A program made the position numbers and the translations under genes. Below are positions 24,015 through 26,209 of a stretch of DNA of 29,107 nt, in pieces. The DNA is taken from the NCBI GenBank assembly GCA_943704525.1, contig CALSCQ010002402.1, positions 15,001 to 44,107 on the forward strand. Direction: 5' to 3'. Every line of letters starts with the position of its first letter. Positions within the stretch are counted from its first letter, which is position 1. The notes beneath the pieces were generated by a model. It did not search any database. It was not told where the DNA came from and worked only from the letters and a program-made list of their open reading frames with translations. This DNA is from Pigoraptor vietnamica (Eukaryota > Opisthokonta > Filasterea).

Positions 24015-25315
24015 TTCGCAGCGTCGGAATTTGCGGGGGGACAGTCGGGCGGTGAGTAGCTGTTGTTGTTACTCCTTTCAGTGTCACTCACTTGTTTCAT
24101 GCGTGTTTTCTGACGTGCCCTCTTGGTCATTCTTGCTCAGCGCTTTCGAACCCGGCCTCGCTGGCGTTTGGTAAGATAAGTGGTCCGTGTCCGTAGTATG
24201 GGTGTCCGTAGTATGGGTGTGCGTGTTGCTGCTCTTGATGCTGATGTCGTGTTGCTTCTATCAACGTCATATTAACGCATGCTTGTAAGTCTGCGTGAAC
24301 GCACTTGTGCGTCCACATGTTTTTGTTTTGGAGATGTGCCTCGCGCCGGTGCTACAACGCCATGCATTTATTTATTGTACAGACGATGCGCATCCGCATC
24401 ATGCTGACTTCGAGGCATTGGTCGTCCGTTGTGTCATCCACGGGGGTTTCGCTGTGATTTTCGGCGTTCTGTACTATTCCTAATTTTACATCATACTTCT
24501 GGACAGTCCAACGCCGCAGTGACATAAGCACAACCTTTTCGGGCCGCCACGCCGGCGATATCAGTAATTTTCTGGGTTCGCCGGAGACTTGGGTGGATCT
24601 TCCGTTTCCATCGCTCGACGCATTGCCGTCCCGTTTTGTCGGCTCTGTGGGCTCAACGTCAGCCTTTCGTTACATGGGACGTTCGGCGTTCGTGGACCTC
24701 TTCAGGGCGGTCAACGAATTGCACGAGGAGCTTGTGTTGAACGTTTACGGCGCGGCCGGTCTCGGCAAGAGCCACCTGATCGCCGCCCTTGCTGTGCGCT
24801 CATGCACGCTGGGCGCTGGCGCGTGGCATATTTTTACCATGCGGGACTCCTTGCAAGCGAAGACAACGTGCGCAAGGCTTTGCGGCTTGCATACGTCCAC
24901 GATGGTCGGGTCGCAGCGATCCCAGACGTTTGGGGGTTCCTAAATGCCGCCGATCCTGATGAACTCATTGTCGTCGTTGATCAAAAGAATGCCATCGAGC
25001 CCGGGGCGAGTGTGGGGGAGACGAGGGCGGCGCGGTGCCGGTCGGTTCTAGAAAAGATGGAGAAGTTTCGGCGCATCTACGGCTATTCGGCGAACAATGA
25101 GATCGTGACACTCCTTTCTGGAAAGCAGCGCCCGAAGGAAGTTGATTTCAAAGTTGACGAGGGCTTCACGCCGGTACGTTATCTGTGTGTTGTGGCCATG
25201 AATGACCCCGTGCGCATATTGAAGAGATTGCGATGTGCGTGCAATCGTAACGTGCTCCTCTGTTGCGTCCACGTGCGTTATGGTGCGCGCCGTGGGCTGA
25301 GTGCGTCACGCGCAG

Positions 25316-26209
25316 CCAATTTGCGAAGGTCTGATGGTCAAGACACTCGAGGTCGAGGCCACGTATGAAATTGCCAAGCGCTCCCACAACTGGCTCAAGG
25401 CGTGTACCTGTTGTGCGGCGCTTGCATTTGCTTGCTGCTTCATATGTTCGCCCACCACACAAGAGACCTTGCACGTCTCTGCCGAGTGCTTGCGTCTTAC
25501 ACTTAAGTGCCTCTTTAGGTAAAGAAGGATTACCTCGAGGGTGTCGGTGATACGCTCGACCTCGTTGTGATTGGCGGCTACAAGGGGAAGGGCAAGCGGA
25601 CGGGCACGTACTGCGGCTTCCTTCTCGCTTCGTACGATCCGGACAACGAGGAGTACCAGTGCATCTGCAAGGTGAGGTGACGCGCATGGCGCTTGAACTA
25701 ATGCCTGTTCCCTAGTCATGCACGGTGCTTGAACTAATGTGTGTCTCATGCACTTGGCGCAGATTGGCACAGGATTTAGTGACGAGGACCTCGCGAAGCA
25801 CACGGCATTCTTTGCCGATCACGTGATACCGCAGGCGCGACCCTACTATCGCTACGGCGAGGGCGTCGCGGCAGACGTGTGGTTTGATGCTGTGCAGGTG
25901 TGGGAGGTGAAGGCCGCCGATCTTTCGCTCTCCCGTCCACAAGGCCGCCGTGGGTCAGGTGAGAGAAGCCTGTTTTTTGCCTGCATGTTCTCTACTGTGT
26001 TGACCTTTTTTGACGTTCCGATGACTCTTCAGTTGGATCCCGAGCGCGGCATTTCGCTGCGGTTTCCACGCTTCATCCGCATTCGGGACGACAAGCGCCC
26101 GGAGGAAGCGACGACAGCCGAGCAAGTGGTGGACATGTACAATGCGCAGCAGGTCGTGCAGGCGAACAAGGGTGCGGGGGGCGACGCCGACGACGACGAC
26201 TTCTACTGA
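25316..26209 (+). pseudogene. C-terminal half of DNA ligase I, 5'-truncated, following the CRN ATPase
   Basis: Exons 25316-25399, 25519-25671, 25763-25958 and 26033-26209. They encode adenylation motif IV (CEGLMVKTLEVEATYEIAKR), motif V (SHNWLKVKKDYLEGVGDTLD) and the OB-fold domain (LVVIGGYKGKGKRTGTYCGF, IGTGFSDEDL, WEVKAADLSLS, DPERGISLRFPRFIRIRDDK), with an acidic end DADDDDFY and TGA. The DNA-binding domain and motif I with the AMP-accepting lysine are absent from the window, so this piece alone cannot ligate. Intron 25400-25518 needs a GC donor (AAG|GCGTGT). The third exon is 196 nt between two phase-0 introns, and the conserved frame after DLSLS continues in another frame near 25930, so the copy is probably a pseudogene. 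The first ligase exon is in phase with the end of the CRN ATPase exon across intron 25174-25315. Confidence 0.85.

Follow-up and report, generated by a model that had tools for sequence, protein, structure and literature searches.

How does a gene of the Crinkler-RHS (CR) type come to be joined to the last exons of DNA ligase I (LIG1)? The question is raised by a stretch of DNA from the filasterean Pigoraptor vietnamica (Opistho-1; PMC9492541), G000:C988:15001-44107, whose 29,107 nucleotides form the window analysed here and belong to an assembly of 32.5 Mb in 1395 contigs. A reading of the bare sequence had proposed that an exchangeable tail was acquired through an intron. The comparisons below point instead, with a probability of roughly 0.7, to a chimeric pseudogene, formed recently when a CR gene and a LIG1 copy other than the intact one were brought together by deletion or ectopic joining. 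Our literature search found no account that joins Pigoraptor with crinkler genes, and no broader claim is made about what is in print.

Results

The CR gene is cut within its ATPase

The ATPase is a P-loop NTPase of the CR type, encoded in two halves that are read in different frames (Table 1). Both halves match the Opistho-2 protein P0122 (E 2e-6 for 24826-25173 of the second half), and the second half also matches P0121, an Opistho-1 protein in EukProt. P0121 shares 97% identity with part of contig C79 in translation and was reached by way of it. The paralog on C79 was the sole route to relatives of the second half, giving two hits at E≤0.01 from 2836 candidates; the open frame of the second half itself yielded 0 of 341 candidates at that threshold. 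When P0121 is compared with the window by tblastn, the CR alignment extends to 25182 (E 5.4e-8). An alignment of five sequences (A1) contains 13 invariant columns, which include most of the GYSANN motif.

In Pfam, the P-loop half matches nSTAND6 at E 3.9e-4, under the cut-off of that family, and neither P0121 nor P0122 passes a cut-off. Because the Pfam matches are below threshold and these relatives are unlabelled, the CR assignment rests on sequence features: we take the ATPase to be a CR protein from its relatives and from features known for the family. The description of the CR family with its NTPase + REase class supports this label (Zhang et al. 2016, as given in PMC5289972).

Past the site equivalent to the junction, P0121 continues with a WW-containing stretch and then a long C-terminal region, which has no Pfam match and which we read as nuclease-like from its position after the ATPase. 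A search of the window with P0121 by tblastn for such a C-terminal effector, REase or other, gave nothing past residue 153 better than E 5. The CR ATPase is truncated within its domain and has lost the C-terminal region seen in its relatives. This corrects the sequence-only reading: what precedes the ligase piece is not a whole ATPase.

CR proteins begin with a header domain that is frequently ubiquitin-like. Upstream, the open frame 22420-22680 has zero Pfam matches at E≤10; it is the putative header of the same CR gene. Four candidate microexons were seen in the window, all exactly 30 nt long with CAG on the 5' side and a GT donor on the 3' side. Three of them sit between header and ATPase and the fourth (28055-28084) in the next gene, whose start lies at 27633-27830 and which has the same microexon style, is followed by tandem repeats up to the contig end and maps to a single genomic place. 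Series of such microexons, equal in length and preserving the frame, may be characteristic of these genes in this genome.

Table 1. Features of the CR-LIG1 locus, in window coordinates.
Feature	Position	Strand	Basis or remark
Putative CR header, exon 1	22420..22680	+	open frame from ATG; one genomic place
Candidate 30-nt microexon, header-ATPase interval	23605..23634	+	preceded by CAG, then GTGAG
Candidate 30-nt microexon	24022..24051	+	preceded by CAG, then GTGAG
Candidate 30-nt microexon	24141..24170	+	preceded by CAG, then GTAAG
CR ATPase, P-loop half	24503..24820	+	BLASTP against P0122 (Opistho-2), E 3e-10
CR ATPase, second half (VVDQxNA, GYSANN)	24826..25182	+	BLASTP against P0121, E 2e-10
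Junction of CR coding sequence and LIG1 intron 15	25182..25183		homology to C431 begins at 25183
LIG1 intron 15, distal part	25183..25315	+	blastn against L003
LIG1 exon 16 (motif IV)	25316..25399	+	length differs from parent exon
LIG1 exon 17	25519..25671	+	preceded by a GC-AG intron, like parent
LIG1 exon 18	25763..25958	+	length differs from parent; parent-style splicing breaks the frame
LIG1 exon 19 with stop codon	26033..26209	+	TIGR00574, homology to C431
Final bases homologous to the C431 copy	26210..26218	+	blastn match ends at 26218
Unmatched sequence, no trace of a CR tail	26219..26537		other matches begin at 26530 or later
Dispersed repeat	26538..27368		20 further matches, 12 other contigs

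The ligase piece is a partial copy of an intact LIG1 gene

Homology searches place the right-hand part of the locus in LIG1. The end of DNA_ligase_A_M (PF01068) is covered by exon 16 (E 2.9e-6, 27.5 bits against a cut-off of 26.2), and exon 18 matches DNA_ligase_A_C (PF04679) at E 4.5e-6 and 27.4 bits, 0.1 bit under the cut-off of 27.5. TIGR00574 is found on all four exon pieces (E 3.9e-18 to 9.9e-6), under its whole-protein cut-off as fragments should be, and chains of solved DNA ligase 1 structures match exon 17 at E 4.7e-20; among the best 120 of 7493 database matches, animal ligases stand on top and Pigoraptor entries are absent. The piece retains the motif IV region and the C-terminal OB-fold. 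Its lack of motif I and of the N-terminal ligase domains, already noticed from the sequence, is borne out by tblastn with the protein of the intact gene described below, which matches the window from residue 561 only. The absent region is the one that carries motif I with its adenylated lysine.

A second, complete LIG1 gene, for which the sequence-only reading had advised a search, is present on contig C431. It has 19 exons, encodes 761 amino acids and is open throughout; it carries KYDGER as motif I, and its N-terminus, MQRSIATFFAKPG, resembles a PIP box. A genome search with a single exon led to two places, the window and C431, 96% identical to each other (3 of 3 candidates scored). The homology between them runs from 25183, inside intron 15, to 26218, nine bases past the stop codon, with introns included (588/609 identical aligned positions in exons, 386/426 outside them), and the intron before motif IV in C431 is the parent of 25183-25315. 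Thus the window holds a partial copy and not the damaged sole ligase of the genome, a candidate that the intact C431 gene rules out; the suggestion that an insertion had truncated the ligase gene fails in the sense of the genome losing its ligase. Because the introns are retained, the piece was copied as DNA and not via RNA, which rules out a retrocopy.

At 3 of the 18 intron starts of the C431 gene, GC stands in place of GT (L003:3108, 5196 and 6073), and the window copy retains the last of these three GC introns, at 25400. The C431 contig ends 88 bases past the point that matches window position 26218, and the flank there is little known.

The whole C431 gene was also compared with the genome at the DNA level (40 of 110 candidates scored). 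The 66 matches comprise the gene itself, one match on contig C663, two on the window contig, three on contig C204 and 59 others; 59 of the 66 fall within one repeat-rich intron. On C204 lies a relic of the LIG1 5' part (L041:2608-3684; at one setting, 65% identity across 821 aligned columns, 161 of them gaps). Many small insertions interrupt it, which is an unusual form of decay. It was discarded as a candidate for an intact ligase paralog: no protein match was obtained at E≤1e-3, and it is a degenerate relic at the DNA level. This relic means that partial LIG1 copies arise away from the CR gene of the window too.

C663 carries the 5' part of another LIG1 copy, ended by the contig end. It belongs to a segment of about 6.2 kb that is present twice, from L045:4696 to L040:4895 on C663 and from L044:5441 onward plus L003 on C431; the segment comprises LIG1-upstream sequence together with the 5' part of the gene, reaches the end of C663 and shows a gapped blastn identity of about 88-92%. 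To the left of C663:4696, blastn against C431 finds nothing at E≤1e-5.

The junction most likely lies in CR coding sequence and the parental phases differ

As assembled, the locus shows CR coding homology up to 25182 and LIG1 homology from 25183 onward. That a CR gene is joined to the C-terminal part of LIG1 (25183-26218), as first read, therefore stands. The position and nature of the join were read otherwise, as an intron border with the same phase on both sides, and neither part of that description is borne out. LIG1 homology starts inside an intron, whereas P0121 and the paralogs on C79 and C297 continue openly across the equivalent site and can be read there without an intron. A GT at 25174 (GTACGT) resembles a splice donor. 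Since the P0121 alignment reaches 25182, this GT is most likely CR coding sequence and not an old donor; the final three aligned residues (25174-25182) match weakly. From these alignments, the CR break most likely falls within an exon, inside the ATPase; an intron private to this CR gene could still lie at the break. The parental LIG1 intron 15 is of phase 1, whereas the CR frame at 25173 corresponds to phase 0. With GTACGT as donor, the frames of CR and ligase agree at present only because exon 16 differs in length from the parental exon, and the phase was not inherited. With the break inside the ATPase and the phases unequal, the idea that a module was swapped cleanly through recombination between introns of matching phase is not supported.

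The chimera is real in the assembly. A misjoin, in which the 3' part of another LIG1 copy would in reality belong somewhere else in the genome than the CR locus, is an account to which we give low probability. Its appeal comes from the origin of the assembly in metagenomic data of a mixed culture, which contained Parabodo caudatus (PMC9492541), and from a LIG1 copy that does stop at a contig end, on C663; a 57-base run identical to C431 (25190-25246) adjoins the junction, and the ligase piece looks recently constrained. Against these points, the window contains 0 N bases, and by our reasoning a misjoin would need reads that already carried CR sequence beside this very intron. Nor is the piece a copy of C431 sequence, given its own variants and its two length-changed exons. 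Divergence also separates it from the C663 copy: outside exons the window differs from C431 at 40/426 positions and C663 at 16/399 (P 0.002), or at 120/2317 when the upstream stretch is added (P 0.0015), and the exon differences point likewise without being significant (21/609 against 9/517, P 0.09). The non-exon divergence likewise speaks against the idea that the window piece is the 3' half which the C663 copy lacks, a comparison that gene conversion could blur. As a single test for haplotype splitting, window positions 16600-20400 were searched and led to one place in the genome.

Frames are broken on both sides while the ligase piece shows constraint

The impression that both parts are decaying proved correct, with frame breaks on the CR side and on the ligase side; exons 16 and 18 have altered lengths. 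The C297 paralog of the CR gene is scattered over several frames as well, and small introns are possible there. General sequencing error is a poor explanation for broken frames, since the C431 LIG1 is open throughout.

Protein-level constraint on the ligase piece is nevertheless visible. Relative to C431, dS is 0.124, dN 0.012 and dN/dS 0.096, with five changed residues, one of which adjoins a length difference and may be an effect of the alignment. Were half of the divergence neutral, a number of changed residues as low as this would have P 1e-4 to 1.3e-3, according to the rounding and the constraint assumed; with five changes, the neutral share of the divergence is at most about a fifth. The low dN/dS means that the donor copy was probably constrained until recently, or that the fusion is under selection; the few changed residues accordingly suggest a constrained donor and a recent break.

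Selection acting on the fusion would agree with the low dN/dS too. Such a working fusion would be a CR gene to which a new donor at 25174 had added a ligase tail, made up of the last part of the nucleotidyltransferase domain plus the OB-fold. The donor-like GTACGT, the agreement of frames across the join in the present sequence and a dN/dS of 0.096 would all suit it. When the last intron is kept, moreover, an open frame (25733-26209) leads to the native stop, with one tblastn match running across; in our judgement this open route is probably chance. Several features speak against a functional product: the ATPase is cut inside its domain and its halves lie in different frames, the frame agreement at the join is not parental, and the ligase piece does not include the motif I region. 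A working fusion seems very improbable. Its fuller form would be a recent, expressed CR-ligase fusion in which CR coding sequence provided the donor and selection maintains the C-terminal ligase part; to this we likewise attach hardly any weight.

A dispersed repeat lies downstream

About 320 bases downstream of the end of LIG1 homology begins a dispersed repeat, possibly an LTR. Its left end is sharp and common to 7 of 9 other copies, among the copies listed; it reads TGTTACGAGGCG in 6 of these 9, with one difference in a seventh, and the window copy differs. Near 27450 the window reads CGTAACA, the inverted form of TGTTACG. Many of the dispersed copies are located at contig ends.

This repeat bears on a further possibility, that a captured LIG1 segment of 1.03 kb was inserted into the CR gene, either as filler in break repair or through capture by a mobile element such as the downstream repeat. 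The two sharp ends of LIG1 homology, at 25183 and 26218, are what an insertion would leave, the repeat is close by, and the C204 relic likewise has a copy of this repeat downstream of it, in matching orientation. An insertion should, however, have left the remainder of the CR gene on the right side, where tblastn with P0121 does not find it, and it would take chance to place the right end nine bases past the ligase stop. The repeat is also present on 11 other contigs, and the LIG1 matches, for which 40 of 110 candidates were scored, include none of these. On balance, we consider the insertion unlikely.

One deletion would account for most features

The reading that we prefer, a chimeric pseudogene, can be laid out as a short series of events. 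A LIG1 copy formerly under selection, with about 12% silent-site divergence from C431, would have lain on the same strand downstream of the CR gene or been brought there. A break and join, most simply one deletion, would then have removed the 3' part of the CR gene together with the 5' part of this LIG1 copy. As the outcome, CR coding sequence to 25182 would abut LIG1 intron 15 from 25183, and the LIG1 tail would continue to its own stop. The absence of a downstream CR tail and the extension of LIG1 to its natural stop go together in this scheme because one breakpoint covers both, and one deletion would also leave little neutral evolution in the ligase piece. A point against a single deletion is that LIG1 homology stops nine bases past the stop codon, which the deletion itself does not explain.

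That a single deletion was the route, that it was recent and that the locus has no function are inferences from these comparisons. Judged by what each lacks, the two halves do not look capable of working by themselves, the ATPase being without its C-terminal region and the ligase without the motif I region and the N-terminal domains.

Discussion

The locus combines features of three known systems. With the NTPase + REase class of CR proteins, as PMC5289972 presents it, it shares a P-loop ATPase, with VVDQxNA and GYSANN common to P0121 and P0122, and a possible header exon upstream. Unlike the CR proteins of that account, its ATPase is truncated, out of frame and without a C-terminal effector, and a housekeeping fragment stands in place of the latter. 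Like the C431 LIG1, it has exons 16-19 with their introns, the GC-AG intron before exon 17 and the stop codon; it differs in the absence of exons 1-15, in two length-changed exons and in its fusion to CR sequence. The third system, partial gene duplicates and chimeric pseudogenes, is a known general kind, and as a partial copy that was made at the DNA level, bears introns and is fused to another truncated gene, the locus resembles them. It is set apart from them by the identity of its partner, a CR gene, and by a ligase part that shows little relaxed evolution.

The locus is not a clean modular tail exchange. With the parent gene known, it shows how a CR locus can become fused to sequence of a host gene, and that parents of unequal phase can give rise to what looks like an in-phase module swap. 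If the fusion were expressed after all, a CR gene would have been caught acquiring a tail for DNA repair out of the genome in which it resides. Pieces of LIG1 seem to have been copied more than once in this genome, and the locus also points to CR-type genes in a probable close unicellular relative of animals. As a pseudogene, it is chiefly an evolutionary and cautionary example.
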